From assembly GCA_002702685.1 (NCBI GenBank), contig PABD01000259.1:1-37186 (forward strand): a stretch of 37,186 nt of DNA, given 5' to 3'. Below, in pieces: positions 1 through 19,114 of this stretch. Each line of letters starts with the position of its first letter. The stretch's first letter is position 1. The DNA is from Planctomyces sp. (GTDB lineage Bacteria; Planctomycetota; Planctomycetia; Planctomycetales; Planctomycetaceae). A program made the position numbers and the translations under genes. Below the pieces are notes generated by a model. The model was not told the origin of the DNA. It ran no database searches and was given only the letters and a program-made list of their open reading frames with translations.

Positions 1-75
1 GAAGAGCCGGCAACGGAAGAGCCGGCAACGGAAGAGCCGGCAACGGAAGAGCCGGCAACGGAAGAGCCGGCTGCT
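1..75 (+). repeat. 15-bp tandem repeat encoding EEPAT
   Basis: Four perfect copies of GAAGAGCCGGCAACG occupy 1-60, and a fifth diverging copy lies at 61-75. The unit length is a multiple of three, so copy number can change without breaking the frame. The array probably continues upstream of the window. It encodes an acidic, Pro-rich linker ahead of the propeller. Confidence 0.95.
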
Positions 76-1650
76 GAAGAATCGCCCAAGGAAGAAACTG
101 CGGAAGCAGCTCCTGCCGAGGAGGAATCTGTCGAGGTGGCCGCGGTGGATGCCGCAGCTACGGAAGCGAAGAGCGACGAGAAGAAGATCGCGGGCGACTG
201 GCCGACGTGGGGGGGGGACTATTTCCGCAACATGGTCAACTCGACCAAAGGGATCAATCTCGATCTCGGAGCGCAGGACATCAATGAGTCCAACAGCGTG
301 AAATGGACCTCGAACCTCGGTTCTCAGACTTACGGCAACCCGGTCGTCGGCGGTGGCAAAGTCCTCGTCGGTACGAACAACGGTGCCGAATACCGTCCCC
401 AGCACGTTGGGGACCGGGGTGTCGTACTCTGCTTCGATGAAAGTTCGGGCGATATGCTCTGGCAGCTCACGCGCGAGAAACTCGAACAGGGACGCGTCAA
501 CGACTGGCCGGAGCAGGGGATCTGTTCGACTCCCTGTATCGAAGACGGAAAAATGTATGTCGTCACCAACCGGGCCGAGGTCATGTGCGTCGACATGGAA
601 GGTTTCCATGACGGTGAGAACGATGGCCCCTACACGGAAGAAGCCGATACCGAGGAAATGGACGCCGACATCATCTGGTCGCTCGACATGATCAACGACC
701 TGGGTGTCTTCCCGCACAACCTGGCGACGAGCTCACCGCTCATCTACAAGGATCGGATCTTCCTGTTGACCTCGAACGGGGTCGACGAAGCCCACCTGGA
801 GATTCCCGCTCCCCGCGCTCCCTGTTTTCTCTGCATTGATAAGAACTCGGGCGAGGTGATCTGGGAAGACAATACTCCTTTCGACCAGATTCTCCACGGT
901 CAGTGGGGCTCCCCCGCGATTGGGATCGTGAACGATCAGGCCCAGGTTTATTTCCCGGGTGGAGACGGCTGGATTTATGCCTTCGAAGCGGAAGCCGACG
1001 AAGCAAACCTGATATGGAAATTCGATATGAACCCCAAGGATTCCGAATGGATCCTGGGGGGGCGTGGTACTCGTAACGCCATCATTTCGACGCCGGTCTT
1101 CCTCGACAACAGCATCGTCGTCGGTGTCGGGCAGGACCCGGAACACGGCGAAGGGATCGGACACCTTTACCGGATCGACGCCACCAAAACAGGTGACGTG
1201 ACCTCCGTGAACGAAGATGGAACGCCGAACGAAAATTCCGGCGAGATCTGGCATTACGGTGGTGTTGATACCGATGGCGAAGTGACCGGGGAAGAAGGCG
1301 CGGAGGTCTTCCGCCGAACGATCTCCACGGTCGCCATTCACGACGGTCTCGTTTACGCCGCCGACCTCTCGGGACGCCTTCACTGCGTCGACTTCAAGAC
1401 CGGAAAACGGCACTGGGAATACGACCTGTTCGCCGCCGTCTGGGGGTCACCGATGGTCGTTGACGGGAAAGTCCTCATCGGAGATGAAGACGGCGACCTG
1501 GCCATCTTCAACGAAGGCGCGGAGCTCGACGAAGACGCCATCGTGGAATATCGATTCGAGTCGTCAATTTACAGTACGCCGACCATCGCCAACGGGGTCA
1601 TGTACGTCACCGACAGATCGCACCTGTATGCGATTCCGATCATGGATTGA
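1..1650 (+). CDS. Secreted PQQ-type beta-propeller protein, 5' truncated
   Basis: The reading frame is open from the first base, so the start lies before the window; 549 residues are visible. A GTG at 136 is an internal codon, not a convincing start. The first 45 or so residues are a Glu/Pro/Ala/Thr-rich linker that begins with five EEPAT-like units. The rest shows repeated beta-propeller blades with the usual pattern of a hydrophobic strand, a Gly, and a 'tG...W' ending, such as [18 protein letters not shown] and [10 protein letters not shown]. These match PQQ_2/PQQ-like (quinoprotein alcohol dehydrogenase-like) repeats. Pro-Val/Ile-hydrophobic-Asp/Gly-Gly strands ([24 protein letters not shown]) alternate with them. 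I see no heme motif. Planctomycetes encode many such secreted propellers; some bind PQQ and some act only as scaffolds, so an enzymatic role is unproven. A strong terminator follows 40 bases after the stop. Confidence 0.85.
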
Positions 1651-5634: not shown

Positions 5635-5666
5635 CATTTTCAATGTAACCCAGATTGGATACTAAC

Positions 5667-7385
5667 ATGAGCTTGCGAGATTTCCCTTCTCCGAAAAAAG
5701 CACTCCTGAGCAGCGTCGCTGTCCTGCTCGTTTGTGCTCAGACAGTGTTGGCGGCGGATGCGACCACACTCGACCAACGTCTTCCTGACAAGACCTACGC
5801 GTATATCTCCGTTCCCAATGTCGAAACGCTCAAAGAGAAGTATAAGGAAACCAAGTTCTATGCCCTCACCCAGGAGGAGGGGGTTCAGGAATTCTGTACT
5901 CAACTGACCGATCTCGTCAACACCGCGATTGAACCGAAAATCAACATGACCGTGGATGACCTGAACTCGATTCTGTCGGGTGAGGTTTCGTTCTCGGTCT
6001 TCAAGCCGAGTGAAAAACCGCTGGCGATGCTGCTGGCGGTCGAATTCGGCGACAGCCGCGAGAAGGTCGACTCGCTCATCGAAAAAGCGACGAGTGCCGC
6101 GGAAGCCGAAGGATCTGAAATTGTCGAAGAAGAATACGCCGGTGCCACGCTGAACATCGTCGAAGTTCCCGGATCCGATCCGAGTGTGCCTGTCGAGCAG
6201 AACGTCGTGTTCTGTATCAAAGACAGCACGTTCATGGTTTCGAACAGCACCAACGGCGTCAAAGATATCCTCGATTCCTGGGAGGGCCGCGAAGAAGGCT
6301 CGTTCCGGTCCAGCCCGGTTTACTCGCAGGTGCTTGAACAGTGTGTCACCGATTCCGGTACGTCGATGTTCAATCTGTTCGTTGATCCGATCTCACTGTT
6401 GAAAGCGATCGCGACCTCGGCCGGCAATCAGGGAATGCAGTTGCAGTTCGGACTGGCGATGCTGGAACCGCTCGGACTGGGAAATCTCAAAGGAATCGGA
6501 TCCTGTTCGGAAATGATGGTCGACGACTTTGAAACCATCAGCCGCACGCTGTTCTACCTCGACTCAGCACCAAGCGGTCTCTTGAACGTACTCAAGTTCC
6601 CGGCCACGGCTCAGAAGCCGGCTGACTGGGTGCCCGCCGAAGCGGGTTCGTTCCAGGCATTCAACTGGGACGCTCAGTCCGCTTACAGCGCGATCGTGCA
6701 GTTGATCGACAGCTTCCAGCCACCTGGAACAGCCGAAGCGATGATTGAAGGAATGGCCCAGCAGCCCGATGGTCCCGGTGTCCACATCAAGAAAGACATC
6801 ATCGATCAACTCTCTGGCGACATTCAGTTCTTCACGATGGCTGGTGAAGGCGAAGGAATCGAAAGCCTGCAGAGCCTCGTCGTCTTCGGTGCGGAAGTGA
6901 ACGATGAGGAAGTCATGAAAGACGTTCTCGTTCGCGTTTCGGAAAGCCCCGGTTTCCCGGCGGAAGCCCGCGAGTTCCAGGGAACCACCATCTATGAGAT
7001 GGTGAACCAGAATCCGGCCGCTCCGACGGTTGCCTTCGGCGTCGCGAAAGGGTACTTCCTGTTCGCCACGGAAGTGCAGATGCTCGAGCAGGTCATTCGC
7101 GGCATCGCCGCTGCAGACAGCCTCGCGGAAAGCGAATCGTACAAAAAGCTGGCGGCTCATTTCCCCGCGGAAACCTCGATCATCGGCTACACCGATCCCC
7201 GCAGCCAGATCAAACCGGTTTACGAAAACCTGCGGTCAGGCGATCTGGGCGCGTTGATCCCGCAGCTTGACTTCTCGGTTCTTCCTCCGTTCGAGGAGAT
7301 CGAACAGTACTTCGGCAATTCGGCCTCTTACACCGTGCCGGTCGAAAACGGTGCGATGATGGTACAGTACCAGCTGAAAGACTGA
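5667..7385 (+). CDS. Large secreted protein of unknown function
   Basis: The product has 572 residues. I chose the ATG at 5667; the open frame extends only four codons further, to a TTG. The N-terminus is a signal peptide ending near VLAADA. The mature protein is acidic and has no transmembrane segment. Its organisation resembles planctomycete DUF3352-type proteins: an opening 'LPDKTYAYISVPNVETLKE' segment, alternating strands and helices, and a second half that repeats the same kind of fold (IKKDIIDQLSGDIQFFTM..., then VAFGVAKGYFLFATE). I am not certain of the family. I see no catalytic motif or Cys pairs. It is monocistronic, ending at a bidirectional terminator shared with the opposing aminotransferase gene. 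Confidence 0.8.
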   Translation: MSLRDFPSPKKALLSSVAVLLVCAQTVLAADATTLDQRLPDKTYAYISVPNVETLKEKYKETKFYALTQEEGVQEFCTQLTDLVNTAIEPKINMTVDDLNSILSGEVSFSVFKPSEKPLAMLLAVEFGDSREKVDSLIEKATSAAEAEGSEIVEEEYAGATLNIVEVPGSDPSVPVEQNVVFCIKDSTFMVSNSTNGVKDILDSWEGREEGSFRSSPVYSQVLEQCVTDSGTSMFNLFVDPISLLKAIATSAGNQGMQLQFGLAMLEPLGLGNLKGIGSCSEMMVDDFETISRTLFYLDSAPSGLLNVLKFPATAQKPADWVPAEAGSFQAFNWDAQSAYSAIVQLIDSFQPPGTAEAMIEGMAQQPDGPGVHIKKDIIDQLSGDIQFFTMAGEGEGIESLQSLVVFGAEVNDEEVMKDVLVRVSESPGFPAEAREFQGTTIYEMVNQNPAAPTVAFGVAKGYFLFATEVQMLEQVIRGIAAADSLAESESYKKLAAHFPAETSIIGYTDPRSQIKPVYENLRSGDLGALIPQLDFSVLPPFEEIEQYFGNSASYTVPVENGAMMVQYQLKD

Positions 7386-7500: not shown

Positions 7501-8448
7501 TCAGGCATGAGCGTGAGTAGAATAGCGCCGGATGGCTCCAGCCTGAATCTGCTCGAAAATATCAAAGCCAACCATTTCGCTCCAAGCCTGTTGCAACTGC
7601 CGGACGACCGGCCCGGGTTTCCCGGTTCCGATCGGCAGTTGGTTGATCTTAGTGACCGGCATGACGCAATAAGGAGTCGTTGTCGTCATCGCTTCGTCGG
7701 CGTTAATCGCCTGGAATGCCTGAAAGTCCCGGACTTCGACGGGGATCCCCAGTTTCTCGGCAAGCTCAATCACGACTTGACGACTGACGCCCGGCAGCGT
7801 ATTTCGCAGTGTCGGCGAGACGATCTTTCCCTGCTCGACAATCAGGAAGTTGGATCCGCTGGTTTCCGTGACATTACCGTCAAGATCAAGCAGGAGGGCA
7901 GCTGCTTCCGGGTCGACCTTTCTCGCTTCGAGGTCGGCCAGATAGTAGTGCATGCGGCTGCGGTACTTCATGTTGGGATGATAGCATTGCGGGGGTACAT
8001 GACGGGTCGACGCAATGACCAGGTGTGAACCTGTTTCCATCTTCTTCGCCCAGTATTCGAACGGCAGCGGGAAGGTGTGAGCACATAGTGTCGGCGTCAG
8101 GTTTGCTCCCATGGCCGCTCCCCCCGCGTACATGCGGTTCTCTCCCGGTGTGACGAAAATCACCAGGCCGAGTTCATCTTTCTGATCGATCAATCCGCAG
8201 TTGTGTGCGACCAGTTCCGTCACTTTCGCCGACAGTTCGGATTTGGAATGGCCCGTATCGAACTGCATGTATTTCATCGACCGGTACAATCGATCGAGAT
8301 GTTCGTCGAGGCGAAAGAGTGAATGTCGAAACGTACGCACCATCTCCGTCACAGTTGCTCCCAGCACAATTCCCTGGTCGAAGATATTGAGGTGTGCCCG
8401 GGATGCGGGGATCATCTCCCCTTTGAGGTAGACGAGAGGTTCAGTCAT
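7501..8448 (-). CDS. Class IV PLP aminotransferase (IlvE/D-amino-acid transaminase type)
   Basis: The product has 315 residues. The ATG at 8448 starts MTEPLVYLKGEMIPAS, which aligns with the usual first strand of class IV enzymes; the longer frame to 8529 adds an unrelated tail. Family hallmarks are LNIFDQGIVLGATVTEMVRTF near residues 20-40, the PLP lysine (K161 in PNMKYRSRMHYY), the LDLDGNVTETSGSNFLIV segment, and the TTTTPYCVMPVTKIN loop. The family includes branched-chain aminotransferase, D-amino-acid aminotransferase and aminodeoxychorismate lyase. The sequence by eye does not choose between them, although the substrate-loop context is closest to an IlvE-like enzyme. The gene is divergent from the glycosyltransferase at 8650, and about 200 bases hold both promoters. 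Its Shine-Dalgarno is weak. Confidence 0.85.
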   Translation of the reverse strand: MTEPLVYLKGEMIPASRAHLNIFDQGIVLGATVTEMVRTFRHSLFRLDEHLDRLYRSMKYMQFDTGHSKSELSAKVTELVAHNCGLIDQKDELGLVIFVTPGENRMYAGGAAMGANLTPTLCAHTFPLPFEYWAKKMETGSHLVIASTRHVPPQCYHPNMKYRSRMHYYLADLEARKVDPEAAALLLDLDGNVTETSGSNFLIVEQGKIVSPTLRNTLPGVSRQVVIELAEKLGIPVEVRDFQAFQAINADEAMTTTTPYCVMPVTKINQLPIGTGKPGPVVRQLQQAWSEMVGFDIFEQIQAGAIRRYSTHAHA

Positions 8449-8649
8449 GTTGTAGGGCCTCAAAATATATTGGAACACACTGTTCAAAAGAAGGAGCCGA
8501 TTGAGAACAGCACTCTGTTGTATCAGCAAACGGACCCTCGAACAAACGATCGCCTCGGCCTCGGAGGAAAAAGGTTGGGACGCACCGGTTCCGATTGCTA
8601 CAGTAGGGACGAAATATCCTCTACAGGTTCGTTAATCCGGAGGTTCTGC

Positions 8650-9912
8650 TTGTTCCGCTGCTGTTCGTCCCCACCGAAATTCTTCCAGTCGATTGTGCTG
8701 CTGCTGTTCGCGGCATTCGCCGTGCGGGCGGTTGCGGCCGTGGGGCTGCAGATCTACCTCGATCGGCAGCCCAACCGGGATTTTCTCATCGCAGGCGATG
8801 CCGAGGGATACTGGCAATTGGCGAAGAATATCGCCGCGGGGGAACCTTATGAAGTTCACGATCCACCCCGGCGGATCCTGCGGATGCCCGGCTTTCCACT
8901 GGTGCTGGCGATTCCCATCAGGTTAGCCGACAGTTCGTTCCTGGCGACGCGGCTCTGGTTGGCGTGTATGGGAACGTTCGCTGTCTGGCTCTGTTACCGG
9001 CTGGCGTGTTTGTTGGTTGATCGTCCCGTCGCTCTGGTCGCTGGTTGGATCACGGCCCTGCACCCGGTCTTCGCCGGATTTTCCGTTTTAATTCTCAGCG
9101 AAACCTGCTTTGCCGCCGCGCTGTTGGCGAGCTTGATCAGCCTGCGCCAGCTGGAATCTTCGGGCGGTTCAGTTCTAAAGCCCCTCGTGGCGGGATTGCT
9201 GGTGGCAGGTGCGACCTACATGCGACCGGTCTGGTTGCTCTTCCCGATACTGTGGGCTGTTTATCAACTGCTCGCGACACGCGACTTCCGCCGGACGCTT
9301 CGTCAAATATTATTCATTGCGGTGGGTATGGCCATCGGGTTGGCCCCGTGGACCTATCGTAACTACCGCGTGAGTGGGCATCTCATTCCTACGACATTGT
9401 GGGTCGGTCCGAGCCTCTACGATGGCCTGAATCCGGAGGCCACCGGGGCGAGCGACATGCAATTTTTCGATCGCGATCAGTTGCCCGAATCGATGACCGA
9501 GTATGAGGTCGATCGAGAATATCGTGCGCGGGCGTGGCGATTCGCACGGGAAAATCCGGGACGCGCGGTCGAGTTGGCGGGTGCGAAAGCGGTGCGATAC
9601 TGGCGGCCGTGGCCCGCGTCGGCAGAGGTATCACATCCAGCGGTAGTGGTTCTTATTGGAGCGGTGAACACCGTGGCGTTTCTATTGGTGATCATCGGAA
9701 TCTGGCATTTCCGTCGCCAGGGGAGCAGGCTGTTCTACACCTTGGCGCCGCTTTTTTACTTTGCCGCCATACACTTGATCTTCGTTGGCTCGCTCCGCTA
9801 TCGATTACCGGCGGAGTATCCGCTGATGATTCTGGTGGGAATAGCGATGGTTAAGTGCTTGTGCAGTAGTAAGATAGAACGGGGTTCGGTCGCGGGAGAT
9901 CTTCCCGATTAG
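8650..9912 (+). CDS. GT-C type membrane glycosyltransferase (family 39/ArnT-like)
   Basis: The product has 420 residues. The open frame continues upstream to 8323, but that part is antisense to the aminotransferase gene and reads as non-protein sequence. I chose the TTG at 8650, six bases after a GGAGG at 8639-8643 and just before the first hydrophobic segment. Family features are a first helix, then an extracytoplasmic loop with the acidic DAEGYWQLAKNIAAGEPYE motif (GT-C Asp/Glu), then RMPGFPLVLA. About eight to ten membrane helices follow, and a short soluble tail ends the protein. Such enzymes transfer sugars from polyprenyl-phosphate donors to lipid or protein acceptors on the outer face of the inner membrane. 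The acceptor is unknown, and no other glycan genes lie beside it. Confidence 0.8.
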   Translation: MFRCCSSPPKFFQSIVLLLFAAFAVRAVAAVGLQIYLDRQPNRDFLIAGDAEGYWQLAKNIAAGEPYEVHDPPRRILRMPGFPLVLAIPIRLADSSFLATRLWLACMGTFAVWLCYRLACLLVDRPVALVAGWITALHPVFAGFSVLILSETCFAAALLASLISLRQLESSGGSVLKPLVAGLLVAGATYMRPVWLLFPILWAVYQLLATRDFRRTLRQILFIAVGMAIGLAPWTYRNYRVSGHLIPTTLWVGPSLYDGLNPEATGASDMQFFDRDQLPESMTEYEVDREYRARAWRFARENPGRAVELAGAKAVRYWRPWPASAEVSHPAVVVLIGAVNTVAFLLVIIGIWHFRRQGSRLFYTLAPLFYFAAIHLIFVGSLRYRLPAEYPLMILVGIAMVKCLCSSKIERGSVAGDLPD

Positions 9913-10153: not shown

Positions 10154-10187
10154 TATAATCAGCGAAACAAGGCTGTTTCTGATTATA
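10154..10187 (+). promoter_or_regulatory. Long imperfect palindrome over a TATAAT box and the start codon
   Basis: Positions 10154-10169 pair with 10174-10187 to give 14 base pairs. There is one 2-base bulge (10163-10164) and a 4-base loop, AGGC. The left arm starts with TATAAT (10154-10159). The right arm ends on the A of the ATG at 10187. As DNA it could be an operator over the -10 box. As RNA it would put the only AAGG-like sequence into the loop and tie up the start region. I see no good -35 at the expected spacing. Confidence 0.6.
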
Positions 10188-13100
10188 TGGCCCGACTTGG
10201 GAAATCCATCCGCTGGTATCTGCTGTTCACGTTGCTTCTCCTGATTGCGGTTGGGGGAGGTGTCGTGTGGTTCTGGATGCGTTCCGACGAACTGCTCCGG
10301 GCGCAGATTTCCCAACAGCTCGACCAACTTGTTCCCGATTGGAACGTGCAGATCGGCCGTACGCGCTACGACTGGAAAAGCCAGGTCCACATCTACGACG
10401 TCGCCGTTCAGGGGCAGGGCGAGGGACAGTCCCTGGTGCAATTGCCGGAAGTCATCGTCAAAATCGATGTCGAGCAGTTCAAAAAAAACCAGCACCTGCT
10501 GATTCAGAAGATCATTCTCAAACGCCCCACTGTCAACCTCGTGCGGGACGCCGGAGGGGAATGGAACTGGCAGAAACTGTCACCGCCACCGCAGTCCGAA
10601 GAGCCCGTCCCCGAGATTGAAGTCCGCGACGCCCGCTACCATGTCGTGCTCGAAAATGGTGGGGGACGTCCCCCGGGCGAAGTCATTATCGAGGAGGCCA
10701 ACGTCCGCCTCGTTCCCACCGGTCGCCGCAACGTCTCCATTGAAGGGCTGACCCACATCAATCAGGTGGGACGGTTGAAGATCAAAGGCAACTGGAGCGT
10801 TGATACCGGCGAATGGGACGTGCAGGGTTCCGTCGCCGAAATCCGAACGCAGGGGGAATTCCTGTCGCTCGTCGCCGGACAGTCGCCCGAGCTGTTGACG
10901 AAATTGCAGGACCTTGATCAGTTCCTGAAGAACTATCCGGGTCAGCAGGAAGAGGTCATTGCACAAACCGCGCTGACGACGCCGATGCCGACCGGAACGC
11001 GCGCGCCGGATTCGGACCAGATTCCCGATTTCGGAATCGGTGTATTATTCGATCTCGACTTCGCTGTCTCCAAAAAAGCGGGAGTGCCGGAACCCGATTT
11101 TCAGTTCAAGTTTGATTTCAAGGATGGTCTGCTGACGAACCGTATCCTGCCGTTCCCCTTGAGCGATCTGCAGGGGACGGTCGTCTGGAACAACGAGTTC
11201 ATCACGATCGAAAGTCTGACCGCTTTCAACGGACCTGCGGGAATCCAGACGAGCGGCAATATTGGTCGGCAACCGGACAAAGCGAGTTTCGATCTCAATT
11301 TTTCCTTTCGCAACATCACGCTGGATGAAGACCTCCGAGCGCGGCTGACGCCAGGACTCGGCAAGCTCTATGACGACTTCCAGCCGGCGGGTGTGTTCGA
11401 CCTCGACATCGGCGTCTATTTCCGGCCGGAAACGGGGTTCAAGTACCGTAACCTCCTGGCGAAAGTCCGCAATGGAAGTTGCCGATTCGTGAAGTTCCCC
11501 TACCCGTTCACCGGCGTGGAAGGAACGGTTCAGCAACCGGGGGACAGCGATGTCATGCACGTCAAGCTGACCGGTCTCGCGGCGCGTCGGGAAACTTCCA
11601 TTGATGGCTGGCTTCGCAATCCGGGCCCGGAGGCGGAATCGGAATTCACACTGTCGGTTACGAACCTTCCCGTGGACGACTCCCTGTTAACGGCGAGCCC
11701 GCCCCCGTTGCAGAAGACACTTGAGTCGTTGCAACTGCAAGGTCAACTCAATGCCACTGTCCATCTGAAGCGACCTCCCGGACTGGGGCAGAAATATCAT
11801 CAGCGAATGTTCGTCGAATTGCATCATGGTGCGATTCAGTACCTGCATTTCCCGTATCCCGTCAACGACATGACCGGCAGGTTGAAGTTCGATAGTGAAG
11901 AGAAAATCTGGTACTTCGACGATCTGACTGGAAGCAACGGCAATACGAAACTGATCGGCAGCGGGACGTTTGACGATTCCGTCGAGCCGGGGCATTTGAA
12001 GCTGCATATCGAGGCCCGACAGGGCTCCTTCGACTCGCAGCTCAAGCAGGCGCTTTCCCCGGAAATGCAGACTGTCTGGGACAAGATGTCGCCCCGCGGT
12101 GGACTTGATCTGAATGCGGATATCGAATGGCGTCAGGGTACGCCCCCTTACATTCATCTCCCTTACGTGAAAGTTTCACAGGGGGAAATGACGATGGACT
12201 GGTTCCCGTATCCGTTCAAGAATATCGACGGGCAGTTTGAATATGGCCAGCGCGTTTCTGATTTCATGAACGGACAGGTTCATCCGACGATCAAAATCAA
12301 ATCGTTTCGGGGACTGCACGACAACACCCAACTGCGGTTGAGTGGGGATATCGACTGGGCGGACTATCAGGACGCCAAAGACTGGCGCGTGCAGTTGTCG
12401 ACCCTGCACGTTGACGACCTTATTCCCGACCGGATGTTCCGCCTGGCGCTGCCACCTGATTTGCGGAAGGTGACTGAGGAACTCAATCCGCGCGGCAACC
12501 CGATTTCCTTGTCGGGCACCCTCGACCTGCGCGGCTCGACCGATCCGAAATTGCCCGTGACGGCGGGATGGGATATCGCCGCGGTACTCTCCGGAACCGA
12601 TGTCTGGGCCGGTGTCGAACTCGAACATGTGCGCGGCAATGTGACGAGCCAGGGAATCTTCGACGGGCAGAGCGTGGAGATGCGGGGCGAAATCGATATT
12701 GAGTCGGCAGATCTCTGGGGTGACTACCAGCTGACCGATATTGCAGGGCCTTACTTTCTCGTAGATCGTCGGTTCTGGGTGGGCTCTGTTCCCAAACCTC
12801 TGCGGCCGGTTCGATTCAAAATCGATCCGAGTCAGATTCGGCCCATCACGGCAAAAGCTATCGGCGGGCAGATCTCGCTCGAAGGAGATTCTCTCATTGA
12901 GGAAGAGACAATTTATAAACTCAAGATCATCATGGAGAACGGTCTGCTCGAGGAATACGCGAGGTTGTACCTCCCGGGGACGCACAACCTCAAAGGGGTC
13001 ATCAACAGCTGGCTGGAATTACAGGGGCAGGGGAACAACCCCGCGACGATCACCGGCAAAGGGCAGGTGTTGATCAGTCCCGCAGCGCTTTATGAACTCC

Positions 13101-13561
13101 CCGTCTTCGTGCAGATGTTCAACGAACTGGGAGGGCTGATTCCCCAGGATAAAACGGCGTTCAAGACGGCTTTCGCGGAGTTCGACATCCTGCAGAAACA
13201 ATTCCGGTTCAATCAGATCCGGTTGCAGGGGGATGCGATCGGAATGTACGGTTACGGAACCGCCCGATTCGATGGCCAGTTGAATCTCGATTTTTACTCG
13301 CGGGTTCCCCGGAACAATTTGCCGCTGCCGCTGGTCAACGAGGTGGTCAACATGGCCTCCCGGGACTTTATCGGCGTCAAGGTGCGTGGCAATGTGAACC
13401 GGCCGGTGGTTACGTTTGATAACGCGCTGCAGCGACTGTTTGAAAGCAACCCGGTACGTGATGCGATGCGGGCTCCGGCGATGTTGGTTCCTCCGTTCAC
13501 ATTCCCGAATCAGCCGTTCTTTTCGCCTGTTCCGAACGGAAACATTCCCGGGAACCAGTGA
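10187..13561 (+). CDS. AsmA/TamB-like envelope protein with four ~118-residue repeats
   Basis: The product has 1124 residues. It has one N-terminal membrane anchor (about 10-31) and an otherwise periplasmic body. The N-terminal 150 residues resemble the AsmA start (PTVNLVRDAGGEWNW). The C-terminal 200 residues (TITGKGQVLISPAALYELPVF, later LNLDFYSRVPRNNLPLPLVN and GVKVRGNVNRPVV) match the AsmA-like C-terminal region. Between them a unit recurs. Its [FL]P[YF]P motif has its first Pro at residues 322, 438, 556 and 674, a period of 116-118. Each motif is followed by a Gly, and each unit contains an 'L.P.L......P.G' helix (P389, about 505, 623, 755). A degenerate fifth unit is near 807-817. AsmA, TamB and YhdP belong to the repeating beta-groove family that moves lipids between membranes, so an outer membrane lipid or assembly role is a reasonable inference. 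Confidence 0.82.
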   Translation: MARLGKSIRWYLLFTLLLLIAVGGGVVWFWMRSDELLRAQISQQLDQLVPDWNVQIGRTRYDWKSQVHIYDVAVQGQGEGQSLVQLPEVIVKIDVEQFKKNQHLLIQKIILKRPTVNLVRDAGGEWNWQKLSPPPQSEEPVPEIEVRDARYHVVLENGGGRPPGEVIIEEANVRLVPTGRRNVSIEGLTHINQVGRLKIKGNWSVDTGEWDVQGSVAEIRTQGEFLSLVAGQSPELLTKLQDLDQFLKNYPGQQEEVIAQTALTTPMPTGTRAPDSDQIPDFGIGVLFDLDFAVSKKAGVPEPDFQFKFDFKDGLLTNRILPFPLSDLQGTVVWNNEFITIESLTAFNGPAGIQTSGNIGRQPDKASFDLNFSFRNITLDEDLRARLTPGLGKLYDDFQPAGVFDLDIGVYFRPETGFKYRNLLAKVRNGSCRFVKFPYPFTGVEGTVQQPGDSDVMHVKLTGLAARRETSIDGWLRNPGPEAESEFTLSVTNLPVDDSLLTASPPPLQKTLESLQLQGQLNATVHLKRPPGLGQKYHQRMFVELHHGAIQYLHFPYPVNDMTGRLKFDSEEKIWYFDDLTGSNGNTKLIGSGTFDDSVEPGHLKLHIEARQGSFDSQLKQALSPEMQTVWDKMSPRGGLDLNADIEWRQGTPPYIHLPYVKVSQGEMTMDWFPYPFKNIDGQFEYGQRVSDFMNGQVHPTIKIKSFRGLHDNTQLRLSGDIDWADYQDAKDWRVQLSTLHVDDLIPDRMFRLALPPDLRKVTEELNPRGNPISLSGTLDLRGSTDPKLPVTAGWDIAAVLSGTDVWAGVELEHVRGNVTSQGIFDGQSVEMRGEIDIESADLWGDYQLTDIAGPYFLVDRRFWVGSVPKPLRPVRFKIDPSQIRPITAKAIGGQISLEGDSLIEEETIYKLKIIMENGLLEEYARLYLPGTHNLKGVINSWLELQGQGNNPATITGKGQVLISPAALYELPVFVQMFNELGGLIPQDKTAFKTAFAEFDILQKQFRFNQIRLQGDAIGMYGYGTARFDGQLNLDFYSRVPRNNLPLPLVNEVVNMASRDFIGVKVRGNVNRPVVTFDNALQRLFESNPVRDAMRAPAMLVPPFTFPNQPFFSPVPNGNIPGNQ

Positions 13562-17522: not shown

Positions 17523-17761
17523 GGGCGTGGTTCCCGCGGATAAGGCGTTGCGAGTTGGCAGGTGGAGATGAACCGAACAAGGAAACAGTACCACGGTGGG
17601 GAAAACCGGGTCAACTGCTCGCCCTGCCGCCCGAGGACGACACTGCCACGAAGGATGCCTGTTTGCGCTGCGATATCCCTGGAATCGACTATCTTTTCGA
17701 CAGGTGAAATATCTACGATAGAACAGTGTCCCTCCACGATTCTCTTAAAAGGCATTCTCCG

Positions 17762-19114
17762 ATGATGCGTCCTTCCGAAATGCGTTCACCCATGAATCGG
17801 TCACTGCGGCCATGGCTGTCGATGTTGTTGGTCACCTTTATGGGAGCCCTCAATTCAAACCTGATTCTGGCAGCCACTTTAACAGCGGGCGTCGCGCAGA
17901 TTGATCTGACACCGCCATTGGAAATGAAATGTTCGCTCGGAGGCTACGGAGAGCGGATGAGCAAACCAGCAGAAGGCATCCACGATCGCATCTGGGCCAA
18001 GGCGCTGGTTCTGTCGGATGGCGAACAGAAATTTGCCATCATCACTGCGGATATGCTTGGCTTTCCGTTTCCATTCAAGGCGGAACTGCTGGCTCAATTG
18101 GAGGAGGGGGACTGGAAGCCGGAGCAGATTATGATGATGGCGAGTCACTCGCATGCGAGTATCGAAATGAACGCGATCCATTCCGGGAACACATTCAATA
18201 TTCCGCAGATTGGCATCTATAACGAGCAGGTGCATCAATTTACGTTGGCGAATTTCAAGAAGTTAATTGAGTCGGCGGATCGTCAACTGCGGGAACACCC
18301 CGTGGAAGTCCAGATCGGGACGAGTACGACTAAAATCGAAGGCTGGAATAATAACCGTCGGCAGGAGGGGTATACCGACAACGATCTCACGATTACTCGA
18401 GTGGATACAATCGACGGCCTGCCATTGGCGGTGCTGGTCAATTTCACGGCGCACCCGACCTTCATGTCGGCCGAGCAGATGTGGTTCTCCGCGGGCTGGC
18501 CCGGTCATCTGCAGCGAACGCTCGAGACATTAATCGGCGTAGATGCGATGGTCATGTACTACAACGGTGCTCAGGGAGATCAATCTCCGCGCTCCCGGCC
18601 GGATTCAGGTGACAGTCGCTGGGAGAAAGCGGAGCGGTATGGCGTGGAACTGGGAGTCGTCTGTTTTGAACAATGGAAACAGACAGAAACGAACCGCGAT
18701 ATACCCTTTCGCTACCAGACGGAAAACTTCGATCTCCCTCCTGCAAACTGGCATCCGGATTTCATGCAGACGGGCGGGAAAGAATACGGCCTGAGCGTCG
18801 CGCTGCTGCGGCTGATGATTCCCCGGTTGTTCGCCGACAAATCCAATTGCACGACCGTACAGATTGGCGACCTGTCGATTACGGGGATTCCGGGAGAAAT
18901 GGCTGCGGGAATGGGTGCGGAAATCAAACGGGCGGCGGGAGAGAAACTGAACGTTAAATCTCCTACAATAGGGGGACTCGCGGACGTCTGGATCAGCTAC
19001 ATCCTGACGGAAGAGGCTTGGGAAGCGGGGGGTTATGAGGCCAGTGTCAGTTTTTACGGTCCTCAGCTCGGGCCGGTGGTGAAGAAAGCCGCTGAGGCTT
19101 CCTTTCCCGACTGA
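17762..19114 (+). CDS. Neutral ceramidase-like secreted hydrolase
   Basis: The product has 450 residues. Of several in-frame ATGs I chose 17762, preceded by AAAAGG at about eight bases; the signal peptide follows (about 13-38, ending LILAA). It matches the N-terminal domain of neutral/alkaline non-lysosomal ceramidases. Candidate zinc ligands are H129 and H131 in MASHSHAS and H231 in NFTAHPTFM. The nucleophile is probably S275 in NGAQGDQSP, equivalent to the GDxSP serine (S274) of the Pseudomonas enzyme. Full ceramidases are about 650 residues with an immunoglobulin-like C-terminal domain, which is missing here. Such short homologues are common in planctomycetes, and their substrate is uncertain. 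The gene is the first of a plus-strand run with the ROK, ppx and ppk genes (gaps 68, 76 and 93 bases). Confidence 0.82.
   Translation: MMRPSEMRSPMNRSLRPWLSMLLVTFMGALNSNLILAATLTAGVAQIDLTPPLEMKCSLGGYGERMSKPAEGIHDRIWAKALVLSDGEQKFAIITADMLGFPFPFKAELLAQLEEGDWKPEQIMMMASHSHASIEMNAIHSGNTFNIPQIGIYNEQVHQFTLANFKKLIESADRQLREHPVEVQIGTSTTKIEGWNNNRRQEGYTDNDLTITRVDTIDGLPLAVLVNFTAHPTFMSAEQMWFSAGWPGHLQRTLETLIGVDAMVMYYNGAQGDQSPRSRPDSGDSRWEKAERYGVELGVVCFEQWKQTETNRDIPFRYQTENFDLPPANWHPDFMQTGGKEYGLSVALLRLMIPRLFADKSNCTTVQIGDLSITGIPGEMAAGMGAEIKRAAGEKLNVKSPTIGGLADVWISYILTEEAWEAGGYEASVSFYGPQLGPVVKKAAEASFPD

Follow-up and report, generated by a model that had tools for sequence, protein, structure and literature searches.

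The question raised by this locus is whether planctomycetes possess a lipid bridge of the AsmA type built from an unusually regular repeat. The window, a stretch of 37,186 nucleotides from a Planctomyces sp. contig, carries a gene for which a sequence-only reading had proposed such a role (Table 1). In E. coli, YhdP, TamB and YdbH carry phospholipid to the outer membrane (PMC8593681, PMC8912898), TamB being an inner-membrane-anchored hydrophobic beta groove (PMC12800296). Bacterial AsmA/TamB proteins are connected with the eukaryotic bridges by their chorein-like start (PMC6791001). A literature search found no paper on planctomycete AsmA proteins or on the crossing of the planctomycete periplasm by lipids. 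The best explanation of the findings described here, and one that we consider probable, is an inner-membrane-anchored beta-groove bridge of five modules, along which lipids would move from the inner to the outer membrane.

Table 1. Features of the repeat-protein gene and its upstream neighbour (positions in the window; residues of the repeat protein)
Feature	Position	Residues	Strand	Basis
AsmA-like repeat protein	10187..13561		+	ORF, 1124 aa, single copy in genome
N-terminal transmembrane helix, putative inner-membrane anchor	10214..10279	10-31	+	hydrophobic, sequence WYLLFTLLLLIAVGGGVVWFWM; model helix 5-48
Chorein-N-like first module	10289..10846	about 35-220	+	Pfam YhdP/DUF748/AsmA N-terminal matches; Vps13 superposition
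Repeat unit 1	10949..11281	255-365, predicted strands from 284	+	pooled unit profile, 70.7 bits
LPFP motif, unit 1	11147..11158	321-324	+	[FL]P[YF]P match
Repeat unit 2	11288..11635	368-483	+	pooled unit profile, 95.3 bits
FPYP motif, unit 2	11495..11506	437-440	+	[FL]P[YF]P match
Repeat unit 3	11639..11989	485-601	+	pooled unit profile, 108.4 bits
FPYP motif, unit 3	11849..11860	555-558	+	F and P invariant, 24 relatives
Repeat unit 4	11996..12361	604-725	+	pooled unit profile, 100.5 bits
FPYP motif, unit 4	12203..12214	673-676	+	[FL]P[YF]P match
Repeat unit 5, degenerate	12404..12763	740-859	+	partial profile match 740-771, 12.2 bits; both AlphaFold models
C-terminal beta region	12845..13420	887-1078	+	AlphaFold model; weak GspN-like match
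Pro-rich C-terminal tail, low confidence	13421..13558	1079-1124	+	pLDDT <50
GT-C (PMT_2) glycosyltransferase ORF, directly upstream of the repeat gene	8323..9912		+	Pfam PMT_2, 27.3 bits, cut-off 26.1

Exactly four copies of the motif [FL]P[YF]P are present in the protein, with the first Pro at residues 322, 438, 556 and 674, as the sequence-only reading had stated. The second motif that it placed in phase with the first is real, but 'L.P.L......P.G' as written has no matches and its spacing was mis-stated. In the corrected form, L.P.[LM] followed after eight residues by P.G, it lies at 387, 623 and 755, with a degenerate copy near 505 (SPPPLQKTLESLQLQG), and in the AlphaFold model it corresponds to the helix hairpin of each unit. 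Ungapped self-comparison placed the top off-diagonal segment at offset 236 (2 x 118). It scored 110, while the best of 100 shuffles reached 57; at offset 117, and equally at 118, the score was 51, with a shuffle mean of 37. Family profiles of single units, made from 21 relatives, recover the other units, that of unit 2 finding unit 3 at 5e-19 and unit 4 at 1.5e-17, with 200 shuffled sequences as control reaching about 4 bits. A pooled unit profile detects four strong copies of 71-108 bits at a spacing of 117-120. The proposed periodicity near 116-118 residues is thus significant in both the self-comparison and the unit profiles, with shuffles far lower. The degenerate unit suspected near residues 807-817 is seen as predicted structure, a helix pair (749-766) and strands (773-859), and has lost the FPYP motif. 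Profiles and two AlphaFold runs together give four strong units and one degenerate unit, in agreement with the four to five stacked structural modules that had been expected.

Pairwise identity between the units is only 11-26%, which would suit a periodicity that arises as a by-product of beta-rich composition and has no structural meaning. However, shuffle scores never come near the observed ones, the identity of each unit is kept in 20 species, and the order of structural elements is repeated alike in both AlphaFold models. Because the profile tests go against it, this explanation is contradicted and can practically be discounted.

Of 294 Planctomycetota genomes, 172 gave a relative of the protein, among them every listed genome of the same family; the nearest record with a name is that of a metagenome-assembled Planctomycetaceae bacterium. 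A second unit profile found only this one gene in each of seven planctomycete genomes and nothing else below E 0.7. When the strong units of 20 species from the class are compared, they group by position into four pure clades, each separate from the others (support 0.79-0.99). Since each unit forms its own clade, the duplications are older than the class and the positions have evolved separately since. Other members of the phylum carry different numbers of units, with eight in one genome (G130), seven in another (G145), six in two (G039 and G051) and three to four in a further one (G012), at spacings mostly close to 112-122. Counts of about 3 to 8 at near-constant spacing indicate that length changes by whole modules.

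AlphaFold predicts repeated beta modules in two runs. The whole chain was modeled with a mean pLDDT of 80.8, mostly 90-95 over residues 400-720, and a pTM of only 0.55; residues 280-870 alone gave the same pattern with a pLDDT of 87.6 and a pTM of 0.71. In both models each unit is predicted to consist of a short helix pair (alpha-hairpin) and then six strands, so that HH-EEEEEE is repeated, and FPYP falls on the third of the six strands or immediately before it. Over 39 strands the in/out alternation of hydropathy is 2.34, against 1.23 +/- 0.14 in shuffled sequences (maximum 1.79 in 2000), and is weak for some strands in units 2-4. Alternation beyond chance is what a sheet that is greasy on one side would show. 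The profile, both models and the alternation all indicate the tandem beta modules, hydrophobic on one face, that characterize the AsmA-like clan, and these modules may together form a continuous groove. At the textbook strand spacing of 4.8 Å, the roughly 50 predicted strands would span at most some 24 nm, which strand tilt would shorten; a normal periplasm is about as wide as this upper value.

The N terminus carries the transmembrane helix (residues 10-31) that belongs to the AsmA-like clan and to the repeating-beta-groove architecture. In VIA-align, residues 35-219 of the model fit onto 6cbc, an N-terminal fragment of Vps13, with a Z of 8.7 (rmsd 4.2 over 163 residues), and residues 33-352 onto LPD-3 with a Z of 9.5 (rmsd 5.3 over 255), values of 8-10 being only modestly above the stated background of the tool; ATG2 (6a9e) superposes with a Z of 6.8. 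The 6cbc and ATG2 superpositions, together with N-terminal Pfam matches, point with moderate strength to a chorein-N-like first domain. The best Foldseek match is again LPD-3 (2.9e-6), a bridge-like lipid transfer protein, with ApoB100 and LptD next. With the repeat region only, Foldseek gave no significant match (best 0.0099), and the VIA comparison returned mostly barrels and ApoB and no specific solved bridge. Since the repeat region alone is without a significant match, it is mainly the N-terminal third that carries the likeness of fold to known bridges. A PDB sequence search with the protein found no convincing relative.

Like VPS13, ATG2 and BLTP1/LPD-3, the protein begins in a chorein-like manner and continues in tandem groove modules, each with six crossings (PMC7613979). 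The eukaryotic groove unit comprises five strands and, as its sixth element, in most cases a helix with a crossing loop (PMC7613979). The canonical VPS13-type domain, a five-stranded meander with a crossing loop, is not seen in either model, both of which show six strands and a helix pair. Thus, whereas the sixth element in VPS13, ATG2 and BLTP1 includes a crossing loop, the one predicted here is a strand, and the unit of about 118 residues also has an alpha-hairpin.

Among bacterial families, the first 206 residues match the Pfam models YhdP, DUF748 and AsmA at 3e-11 to 2e-4, YhdP giving the 3e-11 and all falling below the curated cut-offs. The YhdP family PF13116 scores 42.5 bits against a gathering cut-off of 46, over residues 3-206 only, and the YhdP equivalog TIGR02099 14.1 against 519; AsmA (PF05170) reaches 20.9 against 29.8 bits, and the TamB C-terminal domain (PF04357) 13.8 against 22.4 (E 0.036, residues 711-800). 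Because its scores for YhdP, AsmA and TamB all fall short of the curated cut-offs, the protein is assigned to an unnamed subfamily. Against E. coli YhdP the unit profile reaches 27.5 bits (shuffle maximum 3.3), compared with 13.4 on AsmA (13.2 in shuffles), 8.2 on TamB (6.8) and 4.8 on YdbH (4.7), and by these scores YhdP is the nearest E. coli protein. When the whole alignment was compared with YhdP profile to profile, the probability was only 21%, the unit-level profile being more sensitive. YhdP resembles the protein in its N-terminal membrane helix, its N-terminal 200 residues and its length (1266 aa), but the unit profile finds in it two weak, unevenly spaced copies, unlike the regular units here. 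The AsmA and DUF748 families are matched weakly and N-terminally, and E. coli AsmA has 617 aa. The evidence thus supports an AsmA-like, repeating-beta-groove protein of an unnamed subfamily with YhdP as its nearest E. coli relative, and the protein probably works like YhdP. The proposal of an AsmA-type bridge is borne out by the periodic modules, the predicted beta-groove architecture, the inner-membrane anchor and the chorein-like N terminus.

TamB has the same anchored hydrophobic beta-groove plan, and fragments of TamB are among the fold matches, with Z values of 7.5-7.6; however, the protein has no TamB domain above the cut-off and no adjacent TamA-type partner gene. The Pfam TamB model goes undetected across genomes of the window's class, and in the phylum it exceeds the cut-off in 34 of 148 genomes, all from other classes. 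This class-wide non-detection contrasts with the description of TamB in all diderms (PMC6791001). An Omp85 protein was found in 10 of 11 class-level genomes, one per complete genome, and MlaD in all 11, one protein each, and the genomes are judged diderm from this content. A class in which TamB is undetected and each complete genome has one Omp85 leaves the role of TamB open to another AsmA-like protein, so the repeat protein could help to assemble outer-membrane proteins in the manner of TamB, acting with the single Omp85 protein (BamA). The sub-threshold TamB C-terminal domain and the unit-profile score on TamB, which barely exceeds its shuffles, make this very unlikely.

The idea that the cell has no AsmA-like protein besides the repeat protein was rejected, as the same genomes contain ORFs of the DUF748 type, 436 to about 1200 aa in length. 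Elsewhere in the same genus and genome, one further AsmA/DUF748-like ORF has 436 aa (locus L042, 2138-3448, minus strand) and another about 1195 aa (genome G000, contig C20, 13810-14772); both are missed by a query with the repeat protein. Given these ORFs, redundancy among AsmA-like proteins, as in E. coli (PMC8593681), is likely.

In the favored bridge, the N-terminal helix would hold the protein in the inner membrane, with the chorein-like module next. The five modules, each about 118 residues long and composed of an alpha-hairpin and six strands, would stack head to tail and join their hydrophobic faces in one groove, and the C-terminal beta region would end the protein. Residues 887-1078 of that region also weakly match the type II secretion protein GspN (TIGR04411, NCBIfam, 9e-4, below the cut-off). 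By analogy with YhdP and TamB, the protein would stand in the periplasm on its inner-membrane anchor, take up lipid at the chorein-like end and conduct it through the groove as far as the outer membrane. The cargo would most likely be glycerophospholipids, and perhaps also a lipid modified by the GT-C glycosyltransferase encoded next to the repeat gene.

This glycosyltransferase gene is the sole neighbor common to all seven loci compared over about 20 kb, on the same strand, and it adjoins the repeat gene in 20 of 21 class-level loci, overlapping it in some. Its true start probably lies downstream of 8323, since the start as listed overlaps an aminotransferase ORF on the opposite strand (7501-8529). 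A linkage this tight hints at a possible cargo, and the enzyme may act on the lipid of the bridge, a guess from linkage. It would also suit a bridge reserved for the export of a single glycolipid, which the neighboring enzyme makes or finishes, in place of a general phospholipid bridge. However, a substrate does not follow from linkage, and outside the class none of nine loci has a detectable GT-C gene beside the repeat-protein relative, so that such a dedicated role appears unlikely. The same loci led to the rejection of glycosyltransferase linkage as a phylum-wide rule.

A more far-reaching reading would be a phylum-specific bridge family whose length is set by module duplication (about 3-8) and which is paired with GT-C in Planctomycetia; a glycosylated inner-membrane lipid would enter the groove and reach the outer membrane, and module number would scale with periplasm width. 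Planctomycetes have an enlarged periplasm (PMC11958385). This extended version is a speculative one that we regard as distinctly doubtful. Modules that can be counted and read from sequence, in a class without detectable TamB, offer a direct test of such proteins as rulers.

Two further ORFs of the window's plus strand were noted. A DUF3352 protein of 576 aa (5655-7385) is conserved in a same-genus genome, and the ORF at 17726-19114 is of the neutral/alkaline ceramidase type (Pfam, 9e-24).
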